Below are positions 10,666 through 39,270 of a stretch of DNA of 41,058 bases, in pieces. The stretch covers positions 1-41,058 of IMG/VR virus record IMGVR_UViG_3300010400_000017, one strand, 5' to 3'. The notes under the pieces are model-generated. The model was not told the origin of the DNA. It made no database searches and was given only the letters and a program-made list of their open reading frames with translations. A program made the position numbers and the translations under genes. This DNA is from a virus. Positions within the stretch are counted from its first letter, which is position 1; each line of letters starts with the position of its first letter.

Positions 10666-11351
10666 AAATTCTCTTTCATATTCTGTGGTTGATCAGTTAA
10701 ACACTCAATAAATGCTCCACATACGCCAGCATGGTCTAATTTTATAGTTGGATCGATCCATATTTTAAACTCGCATTTTCTAGCCCTGCGACAAAATACG
10801 TAATCCTCACCCCAAAATTCTCCGTCCCAAATTTCAGTATCAAAAAGACAATGTCCACGGGTATGTTTTAAACTTTCATCCTTCGGTTCATAATAAAGTT
10901 CAGGAAAAAAATCAATCATCTTTTGCAATGTATTTCTTTTCAACATCATAAATCCAGCTGGAACATATTCCATTTCAAGCAATTTCTTTTCTGAAATTTC
11001 CATTCTTTTATTTTCACCATATACACCTCGGAAAAGAAAACACTTTTCAGGTCCTCTAGCAGGGTATAAAGCAGCGACGAAATCTTCATCAAAATTAATC
11101 ATTCTTTGCACATCAATAGGATTCCAAGCAATATCGGAATCAATAAAAAGCATGTGAGTGCAATCTGATTCTAAAAATGATTTTATAAGGTCATTACGCT
11201 CCCGAACAAGTAAGGATCCAGATGTGTGGATTCTCATGATTGACTGAATGGCATTAGACGCTAGATAAAGACGAGTTTCAGCCAGTGCACATGCGTAAGA
11301 AACATTAACTTTTCCATCGAAAGCAGGAGTGGCAATAAATATTTTTGTCAT
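10662..11351 (-). CDS. GT-A type glycosyltransferase (229 aa)
   Basis: An N-terminal IFIATPAFDGKVN strand, an RERN motif and a DxD motif in LFIDSDIAW (about residues 70-78) indicate a GT-A nucleotide-sugar transferase. Later acidic WGEDYVFCRRAR and HAG motifs are usual in this group, which is similar to Anp1-type enzymes. Its ATG overlaps the stop of the collar-type fibre gene (ATGA), so it is made with the fibre and may glycosylate a virion protein or alter host surface sugars. The target cannot be seen. Confidence 0.8.
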   Translation of the reverse strand: MTKIFIATPAFDGKVNVSYACALAETRLYLASNAIQSIMRIHTSGSLLVRERNDLIKSFLESDCTHMLFIDSDIAWNPIDVQRMINFDEDFVAALYPARGPEKCFLFRGVYGENKRMEISEKKLLEMEYVPAGFMMLKRNTLQKMIDFFPELYYEPKDESLKHTRGHCLFDTEIWDGEFWGEDYVFCRRARKCEFKIWIDPTIKLDHAGVCGAFIECLTDQPQNMKENL

Positions 11352-15438: not shown

Positions 15439-17787
15439 TTATGCCTGCAATAACCACCAAGAGACTGTTACGTTTCCATTCAAGGCGGCTGCACCATTAT
15501 TAACAGTTTTAACGACAAAAGATCCTGCTGCTCTTGTAATTCTTCTAATAGACATTTGAGCATCATTCGCACCCTCGTTACAAACTGTGACTAGGAGTAC
15601 TGATGCAATTGTGACTAAGCTATTTGTAATTGTAAAATCTTGAATACCTGCGGCAGCAGTTGTAAAACCTGTAAATGTTGCAGCGCCAACGTTAACGTTT
15701 TGTATCGATGCAGCTGTAGGAGAAGCCACATTTGCCGTGTTAGCAACTACTGTAGCGAATCCTGCTGAGCTAAGATCAATAGATCCTCCTCCGGTCGTAA
15801 GATCAATTCCACCTGCTGCATTAGAAGAAGTTATAACGATGGCATTTGCTGCTGCTTCAGTTGCTGTTATATTTACACTAGATCCCGTTGCGGTTATATT
15901 AATGTCCTCTCCAGCTGCTGCACCTGACGCCAGGACATTAATGCCTCCTGCTGTCGATTCAATATTTATTGATTCGGTTGCGCTTTCTGTAGCTGTGATT
16001 CTAACTGAAGATCCTGTTGCTGTTATTACGATGTCTTCTGTTGCGGCAGCTCCAGCTGCAAGAATTTGAATACCTCCTACAGTAGAAGTAATCACAATTG
16101 AATCAGTGGCATTTTCTGTCGAAGTAATGTTTACGCTAGATCCTGTAGCTACTATATCTATATCCTCTCCAGCGGCAGCGCCTGCGGCTAAAATATCTAT
16201 ACCTCCAATTAATGAAGTAATCACTACAGAATCAGCCGCATTTTGACCAGATGATAAGGTAACTTTTCCTAATGTTGATCCAACATCTAATGCAAAAGCA
16301 CCCGTTACAGTAAAATTAGAAGCAGCAGCTGAATCAAGAGAAATTGCACCTGAAGTATCTACAATCACACCAGCTGTTCCAGAATCAATATCAATTCCTC
16401 CTCCTACCGCAGATGCTACGATATTAATGGCATCTGCTGATGACAAGCCGCCTTGAATTGTTACACCGCTAACGTCAGACAAAACAAGAACGCTTGCGGC
16501 TCCCGTACCTTGATCAGCATGAATTTGAAGCGTTTCTGAGGATCCTCCATTAGCTCTTATATATACGGCTTGCGCTGCATTTTCTGTCGAAGTAACGTTA
16601 ACACTTGATCCTGTGGCAAAAATATCAATGTCTTCCCCAGCTCCTGCACCGAATGCAAGGATATCAATTCCCCCTGCTGTCGATTCAATCACTATAGAAT
16701 CATTAGCACTTTGTGATGTTGCAATGTTAATTTGACCCACTGCATCAACGTCAATGCCTCCTGCTGTGGCGTCAATATTAATCGCATCCGAAACGGCTTC
16801 AGTGGCACTAAGAACAATAGAACTTCCTGTTGCAGTAAGGGAAATGTCTTCTGTAGCCGCTGCACCTGTTGCCCTAAGTCTAATACCTCCTGCTGTGGAT
16901 ATAATATCTATGGAATCGACAGCGCTTTCCGTAGCTTGTAGGACGATAGATCCACCGGTATTTGTGATGTTAATATCTTCTGTAGCTGCTCCAACTGCAT
17001 CGATGTCAATACCGCCCGCAGATGCTACTAGTCGAATCGCATCTACTGCGTTTTGAGAGGATGCTATGTTAACTTGCAATGCCCCATCAATGTCTATACC
17101 ACCTGCGGCCGCTTGTAAACCAATTGCATTTGCAACCGCTTCTCCTGCTGATATAGGAACACTTCCGGATGCACTTGACAAGGTTAGGTCAATACCTGCT
17201 CCTGTTGTCCCTACGCTGGATGCGGTTGCTGATGTAATGGTAAAAGCCCCGGTTGCACCAGTGAAAGAAACTGTTCCCGTTGCAGTTAGATCAGTGAATG
17301 ATCCTGGAACACCTCCAGAACCTACAAAATTTGCCAACTTTAAAGGTGTGACAATTTTTGTATCATCTGTGCCGGCATCTGTTTCCGCTTGGGTAGCAAG
17401 TTCAGCGATACCTTGTTGAGTTTCTGTAGCTGGAGGAACTGCCCCAACAACTATTCCAGCGATTACCGTAGCTACATCATTCGCCGTAGGAACATATGCC
17501 CCAGCGGGTGCGCTACCTCCTTGAAGTTCTGCAAGAGTTGCCAGTTGAACAATACCGAAAGATGAAGTTGTAGCCTCTGCATTACCTCCTGAAGTCCATA
17601 CGGGTATTCCTGAGGTATATCCCGTTAAAGTAAATGATGTCTGGGCAACTTGGTTTATCCATCCATAACCAATGTCTAGTTTGTCATTATCTCCAGGATC
17701 TCTATCAGCGATAATGGTTGGAATAACTGACCCCCCGTTGGGAGCATCATTATATTGGAAAGGACAAGGGATGAAGGGTGATGTCAT
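15439..17787 (-). CDS. long beta-solenoid tail fibre (782 aa)
   Basis: The N-terminal ~150 residues hold a conserved fibre module (ADRDPGDNDK, then IGYGWINQ) and two segments of the phage tail-fibre repeat type, including GIVQLATLAE and GIAELATQAETDAGTDDTKI. Residues ~215-665 are tandem repeats containing GGI(D/N/R)(I/V) and (G/T)EDI, with a basic period of 43 residues, consistent with a parallel beta-solenoid shaft. The last ~100 residues form a distinct C-terminal domain. Neighbours are fibre genes and a regulated intergenic region. It probably serves as receptor-binding or adhesion fibre. Confidence 0.85.
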   Translation of the reverse strand: MTSPFIPCPFQYNDAPNGGSVIPTIIADRDPGDNDKLDIGYGWINQVAQTSFTLTGYTSGIPVWTSGGNAEATTSSFGIVQLATLAELQGGSAPAGAYVPTANDVATVIAGIVVGAVPPATETQQGIAELATQAETDAGTDDTKIVTPLKLANFVGSGGVPGSFTDLTATGTVSFTGATGAFTITSATASSVGTTGAGIDLTLSSASGSVPISAGEAVANAIGLQAAAGGIDIDGALQVNIASSQNAVDAIRLVASAGGIDIDAVGAATEDINITNTGGSIVLQATESAVDSIDIISTAGGIRLRATGAAATEDISLTATGSSIVLSATEAVSDAINIDATAGGIDVDAVGQINIATSQSANDSIVIESTAGGIDILAFGAGAGEDIDIFATGSSVNVTSTENAAQAVYIRANGGSSETLQIHADQGTGAASVLVLSDVSGVTIQGGLSSADAINIVASAVGGGIDIDSGTAGVIVDTSGAISLDSAAASNFTVTGAFALDVGSTLGKVTLSSGQNAADSVVITSLIGGIDILAAGAAAGEDIDIVATGSSVNITSTENATDSIVITSTVGGIQILAAGAAATEDIVITATGSSVRITATESATESINIESTAGGINVLASGAAAGEDINITATGSSVNITATEAAANAIVITSSNAAGGIDLTTGGGSIDLSSAGFATVVANTANVASPTAASIQNVNVGAATFTGFTTAAAGIQDFTITNSLVTIASVLLVTVCNEGANDAQMSIRRITRAAGSFVVKTVNNGAAALNGNVTVSWWLLQA
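15795..17145 (-). repeat. 129-bp tandem repeats in the solenoid fibre gene
   Basis: The GATCC-containing segment recurs at 15881, 16010 and 16139 (129 bp apart) and again at 16820/16949 (129 bp). Each unit encodes 43 residues, probably two solenoid turns. About ten degenerate units cover the region. Confidence 0.85.
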
Positions 17788-17805: not shown

Positions 17806-17851
17806 TTGACTTCAGGCTGTCAAATTAAAATTTTGATATATATATATCAAA
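17806..17851. promoter_or_regulatory. two inverted repeats between divergent genes
   Basis: AATTTGAC/GTCAAATT with an 8-base centre (17806-17829), and the perfect 20-bp palindrome TTTGATATATATATATCAAA (17832-17851). They lie between the fibre gene and the plus-strand regulator gene and are likely operators, most simply for the adjacent helix-turn-helix protein. Confidence 0.55.
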
Positions 17852-17860
17852 TTTATCAGG

Positions 17861-17889
17861 TTGATACATGATTGAACATTTGTTAAAAT
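17861..17889 (+). promoter_or_regulatory. promoter for the plus-strand regulator/membrane-protein island
   Basis: TTGATA (17861-17866), a 17-base spacer and TAAAAT (17884-17889). The expected start of transcription coincides with the ATG at 17896, so the first gene may be translated from a leaderless message. Confidence 0.6.
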
Positions 17890-17895
17890 AGAAGA

Positions 17896-18102
17896 ATGGA
17901 ATCCGAATTTTTATCAATCAAAGAAGTGGCATCAATTTTACAATGTCACCCACAGACAATACGTAGGGCTATAAAGATGAAACTTTTGCCATTCATACGT
18001 ATAGGAAACTTTCCGAAGAGTCCATATAGGATATCTAGAAGCGTTATAGACGCTATTCATGAAGGATCAATACAAGGATTTAAAACGAGGGACACAAAAT
18101 GA
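17896..18102 (+). CDS. MerR/excisionase-like helix-turn-helix protein (68 aa)
   Basis: FLSIKEVASILQCHPQTIRRAI is a classical excisionase/AlpA-type winged helix, followed by a basic wing and a short tail. No integrase was found in the window, so an orphan regulator role is more likely than excision. It is transcribed against the surrounding late genes from its own promoter. No ribosome site is apparent, in line with a leaderless start. It probably binds the palindromes immediately upstream. Confidence 0.75.
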   Translation: MESEFLSIKEVASILQCHPQTIRRAIKMKLLPFIRIGNFPKSPYRISRSVIDAIHEGSIQGFKTRDTK

Positions 18103-18314
18103 ATGAAACTTGGCTCCAAATAATCGCCTTATTTCTCGCAAATGCAAGTTTAGTCGTATGGTTTAGAGCTGAATCAAGAGCTGATTGGAGACATATGGAT
18201 GCAAAAATGGAATCTTTTAGGGCAGAATCATCTCTTTTAATGAGAGAAATTCAGCAAGAAATTAAGGATTTTCACAATAGACTGTGCTCTATCGAAGAAA
18301 GGAATAAGAAATGA
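18099..18314 (+). CDS. one-helix membrane protein with coiled-coil tail (71 aa)
   Basis: Residues ~6-22 are a transmembrane helix (IIALFLANASLVVWF); the rest is an amphipathic charged helix ending in KDFHNRLCSIEERNKK. The ATG overlaps the regulator stop (ATGA). It could be a holin-like or membrane-anchoring protein. This is inference from topology only. Confidence 0.65.
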   Translation: MNETWLQIIALFLANASLVVWFRAESRADWRHMDAKMESFRAESSLLMREIQQEIKDFHNRLCSIEERNKK

Positions 18315-18472
18315 GTGACTCAAAACATTGGACTACACATGTGGAATTCGTGGTTTTACTTGTCACTCTAATTGGAGGTTTTTATCTCCTAGATGGGAAA
18401 ATAGAACGTCAAAGCTCTCGAACAGATAGACTTTATGAGATGTTCATAGATTTGATTAAAGAAAAGAGGTGA
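18311..18472 (+). CDS. one-helix membrane protein (53 aa)
   Basis: It overlaps the previous stop by ATGA. Residues ~12-27 (FVVLLVTLIGGFYLL) form one transmembrane helix, followed by a charged helix. It shares its layout with the preceding 71-aa protein, so the two may act as a pair in the inner membrane, for example in lysis timing or exclusion. Only weak hairpins lie between this gene and the convergent ejection-protein gene. Confidence 0.6.
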   Translation: MSDSKHWTTHVEFVVLLVTLIGGFYLLDGKIERQSSRTDRLYEMFIDLIKEKR

Positions 18473-18515: not shown

Positions 18516-19910
18516 TTAATCAATTCTTGGCTTTTTGGCTTTTTTCTTTCTTTCTGCATAACGTTCCTTTAATGCTTTCTTGGCAGGTTCTAGAGCATCA
18601 TATATTGTCATGAACTTATTTTTATACTCATTTCCTTTACCGCCTCTTTCTGATTGAAGCTTTTTGATAAGCTGATACATAGCTGCACCGATGGGTGATT
18701 CTGTACCCGCTTCCCATGCTCCGATAAAGTTCTCTCCCGTTGATTTACGCTGGGTTAGGAAGTTTGTAAGCACTTCAACATCTTCAGGTGATATATCATC
18801 ATAGGCATACAATTGATCACTTCCATGAGGCTTATAAGCTAGTTCATTTGTATTTGGATCATATCCAGCCCATTCCACATTTCTAGAGATTTGCTTTCCT
18901 GTTTTCTTTTCAATTCCTTGGGTCAATTCTTCATATAAATCCGCAAGATCTTTTTCATCGATTGGAGCTTGTATTAATTCATCTTCATTAACTTGATGCT
19001 TTTTCCCATCCACTTCAATGATCGCTTTACCGTTCCGGATTTCTCGGACTGAACCTATTCCTTGCGGAGATGCTACCGTAGACCCTTTATTGATGATGTT
19101 TTCCCTGAATTTTCCTAATGCTTCTTCTCTTGTAAGAGGTATTTTTTGTTTAGAAACTTCTTGTGTTTCTGGAATATTCTCTTGTTCAGGAATCGATCCC
19201 ATATATTCGGAAACAATTTCCTCAATAGACTTACCGGCATCTTTCTCAAGTTTACTAGTCTGAGAAGGATTGAACTTTTTGAAATAAGTTGAAATTTCCT
19301 CAACACCATTTCCACTTTTCATTAAATCATTAATTTTAGATTCAAATCCTGCATGTTTAGATAGTATTTGTTTTACATCTATAGGTTTTATTTCAGGTTG
19401 AATTGGAATTTGTTGTTGTGCTATATTAGGGGAAATTGGAGGTTGTGATGGTTGAGTTTGAGAACTGGGTATTAAAGTGCTTGGGTTGGGCATCGGTGCC
19501 ATCGTTCCTGTGGCTGTGGTTAATGTACCTGGCTGGACGTTTGTAACCGCACCAGGCCCCATTAATTGAGGAGCAGCTCTTTTCAAGGCATTTTGAAGCA
19601 TAGGAGCACCTAAGGCAGCCCCTCCAGATAATGCAGCCATTCCAGCCCCTTTAAGGGCCGTCTGATTAACATCTTGACCGCGTTGAATATCTATATCTCT
19701 AGTTTGTTCGTGTTCTGTCGTTGCTGGAGAATCTTCGTTAACCGACTTTCTTCCACCACCAAGAAATTTAACGATTTGATCGACTGTAAAACCTGCCTTC
19801 AAAGCATCTTTGATCTTGTCCTTATGATTAGGAAATTTTCTGATCAAATAATCGATAATTTGCTTTGATGTAAAACCACTTGATAAAGCATTGAGAAGTT
19901 GCGAAGCCAT
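18516..19910 (-). CDS. probable internal/ejection protein with KTSC-like domain (464 aa)
   Basis: The N-terminal ~50 residues are helical with KDALKAGFTVDQIVKFLGGG. Then come an Ala/Gly-rich segment, a Pro/Gln-rich low-complexity linker, a small KOW-like beta segment (GKAIIEVDGKKHQV) at ~300, and a KTSC-like domain at ~345-415 (VEWAGYDPNTNELAYK through LYAYDDI). The end is strongly basic. It belongs to a row of three large, low-complexity proteins after the tail genes, the usual position of DNA-ejection proteins. Its stop is the end of the leftward structural run before the plus-strand island. Confidence 0.65.
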   Translation of the reverse strand: MASQLLNALSSGFTSKQIIDYLIRKFPNHKDKIKDALKAGFTVDQIVKFLGGGRKSVNEDSPATTEHEQTRDIDIQRGQDVNQTALKGAGMAALSGGAALGAPMLQNALKRAAPQLMGPGAVTNVQPGTLTTATGTMAPMPNPSTLIPSSQTQPSQPPISPNIAQQQIPIQPEIKPIDVKQILSKHAGFESKINDLMKSGNGVEEISTYFKKFNPSQTSKLEKDAGKSIEEIVSEYMGSIPEQENIPETQEVSKQKIPLTREEALGKFRENIINKGSTVASPQGIGSVREIRNGKAIIEVDGKKHQVNEDELIQAPIDEKDLADLYEELTQGIEKKTGKQISRNVEWAGYDPNTNELAYKPHGSDQLYAYDDISPEDVEVLTNFLTQRKSTGENFIGAWEAGTESPIGAAMYQLIKKLQSERGGKGNEYKNKFMTIYDALEPAKKALKERYAERKKKAKKPRID

Positions 19911-30401: not shown

Positions 30402-31364
30402 TTAAATTGCCACGTTAAGAGTGCAGCGTAAAGCCACAATCCAGCTTGTATTGGTGATATTGAATACTTGAGCCATCTTCCAACCCGCTGTCTGATAAAG
30501 TCTCAAACGTGGTGAAGCAATCTCAGGCGGTGCATAAATGAACTGAGCGGAATAACCGTCAAGATCAACCATATCGTAGCTTTCCTGCCCGGGCAAGAAG
30601 ATGTTATATACATCAGCACCTTTAGCCGAAGCATTAGGAATTACCGAACCAACTGAAGACAATAGAAAACGGATGTTTCGAATTGCGCCCCATTCTGCTT
30701 GCAATAGATTGCTATTGTTTGCGTAGTTGGCAACGTTAATAAATCCTAACAATTGATCCAGGTCAGCGCTAAGGTTGGTATGAGCCAATCCAAAGAATGC
30801 TGTACGCACTGGAGCCGTACCGAATTTATTTTCACCTTCAATCATATCCTGAATGAATTGAGCATTAGCTGTTCGAAGTAATCGAACGGCTTTTGAGCAA
30901 TCCAATGCAGAGATATTGGTAGGATTGTCCCCGTTTGTACCACTTGTACAATTAATTGGAGGCGCTCCGCCTTCCATCATTGACCTAGCTAATTGATCCT
31001 CTGTTTCTCTCAAGGATTGTCCAAGAGTTGACACAGCAGAATTTAAAACCGGGTCTTCGTTGATCAGCATAACTTGTTCTTGAAGAATCAAGTAAGTCCC
31101 ATACCAATCAATTCTAGCATCAATATCTAAAGCCGTCAGCTGTTGCGCTGGAGGATCTACAATACCATTACCAAGCGGTACAGGTGCTGTAAGTAGGTTT
31201 TTGTATCTACGTCTACGTAGAATATCTCCCGCTTGCTGATCCATTGTTATCGGATAACCCATAGTTGTATGGATAAGATCCGGCATTGGACGAGCCAAAA
31301 GCTTCATTGAAAGCTGTTGTTGTACTGCAGGAGGTAAAATGCTGGTGGTCGTTGGACCGCTCAT
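30402..31364 (-). CDS. major capsid protein, N4-gp56-like (320 aa)
   Basis: The sequence follows the N4-gp56 family pattern: QAGDILRRRRYKNLLTAPVP, DIDARIDWYGTYLILQEQVM, then EDPVLNSAVSTLGQSLRETE and a C-terminal beta-rich core (VDLDGYSAQFIY). These are HK97-fold shell proteins of about 300-400 aa, so it is full length. Scaffold is encoded just upstream and portal further up. The assignment rests on recalled family pattern plus position. Confidence 0.85.
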   Translation of the reverse strand: MSGPTTTSILPPAVQQQLSMKLLARPMPDLIHTTMGYPITMDQQAGDILRRRRYKNLLTAPVPLGNGIVDPPAQQLTALDIDARIDWYGTYLILQEQVMLINEDPVLNSAVSTLGQSLRETEDQLARSMMEGGAPPINCTSGTNGDNPTNISALDCSKAVRLLRTANAQFIQDMIEGENKFGTAPVRTAFFGLAHTNLSADLDQLLGFINVANYANNSNLLQAEWGAIRNIRFLLSSVGSVIPNASAKGADVYNIFLPGQESYDMVDLDGYSAQFIYAPPEIASPRLRLYQTAGWKMAQVFNITNTSWIVALRCTLNVAI

Positions 31365-33213: not shown

Positions 33214-33420
33214 TTATTTATTGGCCATCTTTTCACGAGTATAAGGACGGTGAGCTAATGATCTATCATCATGATGATCAATTTTCTTTCTAACCATCTC
33301 ATAACTATTTGATGCTCCGGCAGGTGGCACATGGGCTTTATTCTCGCCTATTTTTGAATAGTGAGCTCCTGTGTTTCCTTTAGATCCGCCGCCGTTTGAA
33401 GTATTTTTGTGACTATGCAT
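33214..33420 (-). CDS. small His/Lys-rich protein (68 aa)
   Basis: An N-terminal HSHKNTSNGGGSKG stretch and basic, His-containing C-terminus; probably unstructured. Overlaps the portal stop by 8 bases (ATG within the portal's last codons). The function is unknown. Confidence 0.6.
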   Translation of the reverse strand: MHSHKNTSNGGGSKGNTGAHYSKIGENKAHVPPAGASNSYEMVRKKIDHHDDRSLAHRPYTREKMANK

Positions 33421-35446
33421 TTGAAACCTCTTGATTTTTCATTAAACTCTCTTGCTCTCTAGCTGACTTTTCATCTTCGCGACTTTGAATATTATTTATC
33501 AATTCAAATATTTTAACGAAGTTTTCGACTCCCATGGATTCTACTTCTTTAGCGGTTTTCACCTTATCTAGAGTAGCTAAATTCTTCATATGCTCGGATT
33601 CATTAAACTTGGTAAGAAGTGAAACTTGCTCAAGTTCACCTTTTCTTGTTCTCTCTTCAGCTAATGCACGGTCACTTTGGGCTTTAGATTGCAGGCTTTC
33701 ATTAACAATCTGTTGATTCTGCATCTGCAACTGAGCCATTTGCTCCTCTTGCTTCTGCTTAGCTTCTTGTTGCTGCTGTATAGACTGCATGAGCTTATCT
33801 TTGTCTTGGATATCTAGATCATTCATAACCTGGTCAGGAGGTATTGGGAAGCCATCTTTCCATAAGAAATATTTCTGTCTAAATGCAAGCTGTCTTGACG
33901 TATCTGTGAGAGGCGCATTGGCTATTACTGCATCGTATTTTTGAAATGATTTGTCGCGGAATTCATTCGTAGGTTCTTCCTCGATCATCTTTCGAATCTT
34001 GCCTAGAGTATAATTCTTTTGAATAAGAGCCCAGTGAAGACGGCCCGCATTGCGCTGTGATAAGTCAAGGTTATCAAAAAGCTCTTGTAGTGTGGTAAGG
34101 GCTGCCCCTTGACGTAATTGTTCTGTAATACCCACATCACTGTCTTCCGCTTGTCCCAGAAGTTCTGGTGTGACACCGGCATTTGATTGGATATCCATTT
34201 TGAGCATTTCAGTGACATTAAAGTTAGCCGGGTTAATGTTTGCACCTGGTTTGTCATTTATTGCCTGCAATCTTCCGTTTTTGAAGAATCTTACTTTCCC
34301 GGGGCCAACTTTGAAAGCGTCTTGATCGTCAATGAGAGCATCTTCCTCAACATCCACTCCAGAAAATTGAGCAGCAAGCAAATCCATTTCGAGTTGCTTA
34401 CGATAATTGTACAAGTATTGTGAATCTCGGATGTTACGGATGATCCCTTGATAACGGAACGAATAATTATTATTGGCCAAATCGTGATAACCGACAAAAG
34501 GTGTAAAGGGGTAAAAATCAACACCCAAAGGATTAGGGCCATCATAAAAACAAGTATTATTAACAATGATCGCAAGATGAACTGTAGGCACTTTTTCATG
34601 AACTATTACTATTTCAGGGAATTGGTATTTAAGGCGTTCGAATTCTTCTTTTGTTAAATCTACTTCGGTTGATTCGTATGTTTTTGGATCGACTATAAAT
34701 GTAGCTTTACGCTCGCAAAGGTACCAGTATTCATCATAAGCAAGAAATCCTTTTCGTCTTATATTATATTGCTGAGGCATAAAGGTAAACTTAGTGTCGA
34801 AATAAGCTTGATCATTTAGCAAATCGATATCATTCTCACGGCCGGGCAACATCTGTTTAACTTGCTCTTTGTGAAGATATTTGCGTGTCCGAATAAATTG
34901 GCAATCTGATAGATCCATCTCGCGCCAAAAAGCATCCATCATCAGCATGTCAGCGCTGAAACATTCTGTTTTCAAATCTCCACACACTGGATCTTTTCGA
35001 TAGTCAATCCATGAATGCATTAGACTCAATCCGGTGATTCCTGCAGACTCTTTAAAGCAGTTCGAGATAGTATTATAGGTGTCATCGTTAGAGTATGCGG
35101 ATTGAATACATTTTGTAGCCTGAGATGCAGTTTGATCGCTAGCTCCATGCACCGCGATCATTCGAGTGCCTTTACGATGCTGTCTTTGACGACCACATAC
35201 CATATTAACTACGGGCATTGAAGCATTGAAGATGAACTTTTGATGTTCGTATGAGAGACCGGCATATAGATTTAGATAACGCTGATCGCCTAGGTAAACT
35301 TTGCGATCAATGAGTTGTTCGTATAAAAATGATTGCCACGGAGAGAGATTCATTTGATAGCGTTCGTCCGCTTCGGCTACAATATCACGTCTTCCGTCTT
35401 GATAATATCCCTGGTATATATTGGGGACTACCTGGCTTCTTTCCAT
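33413..35446 (-). CDS. portal protein (677 aa)
   Basis: Length and layout match the P22-type portal class: an N-terminal helical region (ERYQMNLSPWQSFLYEQLID), a large mixed core with HSWIDYRKDPVCG, and a C-terminal Gln-rich coiled coil (~545-600) forming the barrel. The portal is the dodecameric DNA gate at one capsid vertex and binds the terminase. It lies after terminase and before scaffold, the canonical position. GGTGG and a short AT-rich gap precede the ATG. Confidence 0.85.
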   Translation of the reverse strand: MERSQVVPNIYQGYYQDGRRDIVAEADERYQMNLSPWQSFLYEQLIDRKVYLGDQRYLNLYAGLSYEHQKFIFNASMPVVNMVCGRQRQHRKGTRMIAVHGASDQTASQATKCIQSAYSNDDTYNTISNCFKESAGITGLSLMHSWIDYRKDPVCGDLKTECFSADMLMMDAFWREMDLSDCQFIRTRKYLHKEQVKQMLPGRENDIDLLNDQAYFDTKFTFMPQQYNIRRKGFLAYDEYWYLCERKATFIVDPKTYESTEVDLTKEEFERLKYQFPEIVIVHEKVPTVHLAIIVNNTCFYDGPNPLGVDFYPFTPFVGYHDLANNNYSFRYQGIIRNIRDSQYLYNYRKQLEMDLLAAQFSGVDVEEDALIDDQDAFKVGPGKVRFFKNGRLQAINDKPGANINPANFNVTEMLKMDIQSNAGVTPELLGQAEDSDVGITEQLRQGAALTTLQELFDNLDLSQRNAGRLHWALIQKNYTLGKIRKMIEEEPTNEFRDKSFQKYDAVIANAPLTDTSRQLAFRQKYFLWKDGFPIPPDQVMNDLDIQDKDKLMQSIQQQQEAKQKQEEQMAQLQMQNQQIVNESLQSKAQSDRALAEERTRKGELEQVSLLTKFNESEHMKNLATLDKVKTAKEVESMGVENFVKIFELINNIQSREDEKSAREQESLMKNQEVSNA

Positions 35447-39090: not shown

Positions 39091-39270
39091 CTATTCCATC
39101 CAAGTCGGGCGAATTTCATTCCTATTGGGCGCTCTATCTCTTTTAAACGTGTAGCTTTTAGTTTTTTTGCCGAATTTATCTACTCTAACGATTCCGTTTT
39201 TATTATCAATAACAAAAGCTGAAGCACTAGCAAAAAAGCACATACACATCATTATAAGCACATATCTCAT
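39091..39270 (-). CDS. small exported protein (59 aa)
   Basis: A signal peptide (Met-Arg start, hydrophobic core, cleavage after ASASA) precedes about 40 basic residues. AGGAG lies 7 bases upstream of the ATG. It shares TAATG overlap with the preceding ORF. Export to the periplasm is predicted; the function is unknown. Confidence 0.6.
   Translation of the reverse strand: MRYVLIMMCMCFFASASAFVIDNKNGIVRVDKFGKKTKSYTFKRDRAPNRNEIRPTWME

Follow-up and report, generated by a model that had tools for sequence, protein, structure and literature searches.

The closest described counterpart of the locus analyzed here is the immI region of phage P22, in which the genes 7-20-16 are followed by sieA, orf59a, and mnt, which run antisense, then by arc and ant, and finally by the tailspike gene 9. 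Mnt is a ribbon-helix-helix repressor, and exclusion genes usually act in the prophage stage. Phage morons are a second point of comparison, and gp15 of HK97 is an exclusion moron according to a citation in PMC10883804. The locus described below lies in a 41-kb virus record (41,058 nucleotides; IMG/VR record IMGVR_UViG_3300010400_000017) of a podovirus-like phage, and this whole stretch is referred to as the window. RecT and a YqaJ-type exonuclease are encoded on its early plus strand and the late genes on its minus strand. A plus-strand cassette of three small genes, encoding a regulator and two membrane proteins designated T2 and T3, is embedded in the late region, flanked by a 464-aa late gene and a fibre-like gene (Table 1).

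Table 1. Positions of the cassette, its control elements, its flanks, and two structural genes in the window
Feature	Position	Strand	Basis or remark
Regulator, 68 aa, HTH_17 / excisionase- and MerR-like DNA-binding protein	17896..18102	+	Pfam and PHROG
T2, 71-aa one-helix membrane/coiled-coil protein with conserved DFHxRLCxIEER end	18099..18314	+	290 IMG/VR stretches
T3, 53-aa one-helix membrane/coiled-coil protein with RTDxLYEMFIDLLKE end	18311..18472	+	60 to 62 IMG/VR loci
Promoter TTGATA-17-TAAAAT, TGn before the -10 (extended -10)	17861..17889	+	Consensus scan
Operator-like direct repeat GATTAAnCAnGATTGAnC	17860..17877	+	Motif in close relatives; overlaps the -35 hexamer
20-bp perfect palindrome TTTGATATATATATATCAAA	17832..17851	.	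Not conserved in relatives
Second inverted repeat TTTGAC...GTCAAA	17804..17823	.	Not conserved in relatives
Fibre-like late gene, divergent from the regulator (flank)	15439..17787	-	PHROG tail fibre E=2.5e-10, tail collar fibre E=6e-10
464-aa late gene converging on the cassette (flank)	18516..19910	-	P22 ejection gene 16 position
Major capsid protein	30402-31364		PHROG match
Portal protein	33413-35446		PHROG match

The window order 21335-19910-18516, followed by T3, T2, and the regulator in antisense and then by the fibre gene, resembles that of P22 in several respects. Both cassettes are antisense to the late operon with a small DNA-binding regulator on the tail-gene side, and in both a small membrane protein stands behind the regulator; the window cassette would also correspond to that of P22 in its site, between the presumed last ejection-protein position and a tail gene. 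The window genes of 174, 470, and 464 aa and then the fibre gene fit the P22 order and sizes; no sequence match to the ejection proteins of P22 was obtained, the two presumed ejection proteins had no convincing counterpart in searches of PDB sequences, and the 18516 and 19910 genes are putative ejection genes as judged by position and size. The parts of the two loci differ. Mnt is another kind of repressor than the HTH_17 regulator of the window, SieA, which has a promoter of its own, is predicted to have three membrane helices whereas T2 and T3 have one each, and arc-ant is absent from the window, with the fibre gene in its place. No homology to Mnt or SieA was found in Pfam and PHROGs scans of the window genes or in the NCBIfam scan of T2, tblastn searches with T2 and T3 against a phage collection including P22 gave no match, and T2 and T3 have no sequence in common with SieA or any known exclusion protein. 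As in phage morons, the accessory genes of the window lie between late genes, vary among close relatives, and have a putative promoter of their own; unlike in morons, the site is anchored by a conserved regulator with the cargo swapped behind it, and no terminator was detected at the cassette's end, with no significant fold after T3. Elsewhere in the window, two small minus-strand proteins (445-663 and 39091-39270) have signal-peptide-like starts, and in the former, which could be a lipoprotein, a cysteine follows this start.

The preliminary description of the window, made from its sequence, had placed an excisionase-like regulator at the head of the cassette, which is borne out by matches to Pfam HTH_17 (E=4e-9; 36.9 bits, above the curated cut-off of 27) and to the PHROG excisionase profile (E=2e-6). 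The regulator resembles small winged-helix proteins of the excisionase, HTH_17, and MerR types in these profiles and in a direct-repeat site spaced by about one helical turn, and it differs from them in that no integrase was recognized in the Pfam and PHROGs scans of window proteins. Its role is probably transcriptional. T2 and T3 each have a single N-terminal hydrophobic stretch, and 4-bp ATGA overlaps join the regulator to T2 (18099-18102) and T2 to T3 (18311-18314), which agrees with the earlier account of two paired one-helix membrane/coiled-coil proteins. Each predicted structure is one continuous helix (pLDDT 94.5 for T2 and 90.5 for T3). The membrane segments vary among T2 and T3 members and the C-terminal ends are near-invariant; F58, H59, and L62 of T2 and D39 and M44 of T3 are invariant. 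The dN/dS ratio was 0.28 for the regulator (one pair), 0.03 to 0.11 for T2 pairs with measurable dS, which indicates purifying selection, and 0.157 for the one usable T3 pair, dS being saturated in the others. Since their ratios are well below 1, the regulator and T2 are selected genes, and chance ORFs are ruled out by these ratios together with the homologues across phages. Neither T2 nor T3 belongs to a named family in Pfam or PHROGs, nor T2 in NCBIfam, where T2 only was scanned; there were scattered weak coiled-coil matches, and the best match of T2 to sequences of solved structures (E 0.08) was unconvincing.

The promoter proposed for the cassette is present, and its predicted transcription start lies approximately at the regulator ATG. 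A plain promoter consensus scan alone was no better than chance (5 found versus 6.3 expected). In about 9 of 34 related regulators, the window's included, a -10-like hexamer ends 6 nt ahead of the start codon and a Shine-Dalgarno sequence is absent, and this recurrence supports the window promoter and makes the suggested leaderless start plausible; a Shine-Dalgarno sequence is present in 11 of the 34. The divergent intergenic stretches of 16 close relatives share the motif GaTTAA.cA.GATTgA.C, a direct repeat of about 10 bp, with an LLR of 106 versus at most 54.6 in eight shuffles, a score inflated by shared descent. The start codon and the fibre ribosome-binding site were trimmed for this search, and untrimmed runs returned only those. 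The best site in the window is the direct repeat GTTGATACATGATTGAAC. The motif was also the best site in G307 and G251, both outside the motif-building set, and lay outside the best six sites in four other genomes that had not been used to build it. The distance between the repeat and the regulator start varies from 3 to 27 bp, which argues that the repeat is functional, and the regulator may control its own promoter by autorepression or by a MerR-like action. An action of the same motif on distant T genes was rejected, as none of the best six sites per genome precedes one. The 20-bp palindrome and the second inverted repeat of the preliminary description are located as it reported. The palindrome is the longest perfect one of the window, and one that long occurred in 2 of 2,000 shuffles of the intergenic stretch and in 13 of 200 shuffled windows. 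Neither repeat was found by eye in the intergenic sequences of the relatives, and the palindrome was accordingly rejected as a conserved operator.

Seventeen genomes of 36 to 42 kb were picked via their capsid protein, because the genes under test should not decide the choice of genomes. In 16 of the 17, as in the window, the regulator stands at the same site, antisense to the late operon and divergent from the fibre gene, with 41% to 57% identity to that of the window; G308 has its sole regulator-profile match elsewhere and none at the site. A member of T2, T3, or a third family of similar build, T4, lies behind the regulator in 12 of the 17 genomes and the window, and anywhere in the genome in 14 (15 of 18 with the window). 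These families are absent from G308, G287, and G309, the first of which has a look-alike. A scan with four close regulators yielded 28 loci. Among 43 non-redundant plus-strand regulator matches, 38 are divergent from a large gene, mostly a fibre-gene homologue, and T2 or T3 follows the regulator in 24 of these. The order regulator-T2-T3, when sought in other phages, was found in L075 and L063, and L070 and L165 have it together with additional genes. The three genes are therefore conserved together, and the location and conservation of what had been described as an independently switched module beside the fibre gene are confirmed.

Other cargo at the site includes HNH endonucleases in a few loci and, each as a single case, a C5 DNA methyltransferase, a helicase of the ResIII type, a DUF29 protein, and an SPFH protein. 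The gap behind the regulator ranges from 3 to 123 bp in the loci without cargo (L209, L208, and L230) up to 1 to 1.7 kb, so that cargo is absent in these three and present at the same site in other relatives, as in morons. The regulator had a median full-length identity per genome of 51%, with an absent gene counted as zero; the corresponding value was 30% in T2, 36% in the 18516 gene, and 11% in the 19910 gene, compared with about 90% in the capsid protein (91% where set against the 18516 gene across the 17 relatives) and 80% in the portal protein. Some of the most variable late genes adjoin the cassette. The capsid gene of the window's relatives contains group I-like introns in 38 of 79 loci (L290-L368; e.g., L334, L339, and L351), at no fewer than six sites and with up to three per gene, which score below the gathering threshold of Rfam Intron_gpI (best 32.1 bits, E 2e-4). 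In L093 (5764-8925) and L092 (4809-7716), an insert contains a T3 gene, and L093 also has an antisense LAGLIDADG-like ORF and, inside its late region, a minus-strand tRNA gene (10744-10815). The window's own capsid gene is without interruption.

About a hundred other phage contigs contain relatives of the regulator, T2, and T3. In IMG/VR, similarity searches located T2 at 38 loci and T3 at 60, and the T2 profile found 290 stretches. The T2 and T3 relatives stand singly, in pairs, or in tandem arrays, with nine in a row in L014 and six in a row plus others in L035, and a further look-alike of T2, T3, and T4 is present in some genomes. Late-region copies outside the regulator cassette (six antisense and four sense) are not clearly antisense. 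None of 50,697 cultured phage records had a T2 or T3 match, and none of 72,556 plasmid records had a T2 match.

Of 84,980 species genomes of bacteria and archaea, six contained a match to the T2 profile, namely three Chlamydiae, one Bacteroidales, one Alphaproteobacteria, and one titled as Acidobacteria that the genome set places in the phylum of the Chlamydiae MAG G001. The capsid protein was found in 8 of 234 genomes of the phylum of G001 at 35% to 57% identity. In the phylum of the Bacteroidales MAG, this MAG was the only one of 395 genomes to have it (29%), and in the phylum of the Alphaproteobacteria MAG it was present in 5 of 398 (24% to 28%). Several of these host matches are phage contigs inside MAGs, for which a binning error is possible; this does not apply to L198, L199, and L107, in each of which a single intact T2 gene stands amid housekeeping genes of a chlamydial chromosome. 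In-frame tandem repeats lengthen the coiled coil of the chromosomal T2 in L198 (9018-9329) and L107 (7908-8252). The matches point to Chlamydiota as the host of the phage group. Isolated chlamydial phages are, to our knowledge, small single-stranded DNA microviruses, and no description of a tailed-phage group of Chlamydiota was found in the literature searched. Phage genes have been reported on two chlamydial plasmids (PMC7846284).

The cassette is best explained as a self-regulated accessory locus similar to P22 immI, whose membrane proteins would act at the host inner membrane, most likely in superinfection exclusion, and this reading is given a probability of about 0.45. The locus would be an accessory ("moron") cassette at a conserved break of the late operon in tailed phages of Chlamydiota. 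Transcription of the HTH_17 regulator would start at its own promoter and run against the late operon, and the regulator would probably control itself via the roughly 10-bp-phased direct repeat over the -35 region, and coupled translation through ATGA may lead from the regulator to T2 and on to T3. T2 and T3 are predicted to be single-pass proteins of the host inner membrane in which an N-terminal transmembrane helix continues as a coiled coil, and their conserved C-terminal ends may interact with each other or with a fixed partner. They would most likely block DNA entry of related phages, as SieA of P22 does from the equivalent locus. Exclusion is favored because of the P22 sieA site, the variable cargo, the free copy number, and the stray T2 genes in chlamydial chromosomes. 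It is a tentative best guess, since position, orientation, and the order of a regulator and then a membrane protein agree with P22 and the proteins are unrelated, and a prophage stage is only putative for the window phage because no integrase was recognized among the proteins scanned. That the cassette lets the phage alter the host membrane is the most likely general interpretation.

Host take-over, or an anti-defence function other than exclusion, would also place the proteins in the membrane, where they might dock on and inhibit a host complex for division, secretion, or energy or a membrane-bound defence effector. In favor of this reading, the accessory genes that use the same site include a DNA methyltransferase and a helicase of the ResIII type, and the several one-helix families combine varied membrane segments with near-invariant C-terminal ends. 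However, no target is indicated, the methyltransferase and the helicase are one case each of about forty, and the chromosomal copies would have to harm or regulate their own host, which makes this account rather unlikely.

Lysis control, with T2 and T3 as a holin/antiholin or short inner-membrane spanin pair timed by the regulator, is a less probable but serious rival. T2 and T3 resemble small one-helix holins and Rz-type spanins in size, in the single N-terminal membrane helix, and in the coiled coil. No other small integral-membrane protein of the window is convincing, the window offers no other holin candidate, and no endolysin or holin family was recognized among the proteins scanned. In addition, the occurrence of T2, T3, or T4 in 15 of 18 genomes, with a look-alike in one more, would suit a lysis gene, and a few relatives match holin PHROGs weakly, some T3 members matching Rz-like spanin and holin PHROGs (best 1.7e-4). 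The window's T2 and T3 themselves had no match to holin families and no curated match, however, and the cassette is antisense to the late operon, has no recognized endolysin partner or lysozyme-type gene beside it, varies in copy number from none to nine, and exchanges T2, T3, T4, and unrelated cargo among close relatives. The stray T2 copies in bacterial chromosomes are also explained more easily by a protective gene than by a lysis gene. A conserved function of the regulator alone, which would control the divergent fibre (host-range) promoter with T2 and T3 as neutral or selfish passengers, is improbable: the regulator is kept without cargo in three loci and almost always lies near the fibre start, but T2 is under purifying selection, T2/T3 paralogues are found at numerous further sites as well as in chromosomes, and the direct repeat is nearer the regulator start than the fibre start.

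Superinfection exclusion from an immI-like locus thus remains the preferred reading. A regulated accessory locus in the late operon is of a known kind, and what is new to the libraries searched are its parts, the anchored slot, and the host group. A more tentative proposal is that T2, T3, and T4 belong to a large unnamed set of small membrane proteins in the phages of an obligate intracellular phylum, which, as single genes and tandem regulator-controlled arrays across phages and chlamydial chromosomes, might constitute a combinatorial exclusion (or counter-exclusion) system of the chlamydial inner membrane. Tailed phages apparently tied to Chlamydiota possess a fixed regulator and a slot into which membrane proteins are swapped, and one family of these proteins is also found in chlamydial chromosomes, and the layout of P22 immI arises here from unrelated parts. 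If T2 and T3 exclude phages, phage-host and phage-phage conflict in intracellular bacteria would become directly testable.
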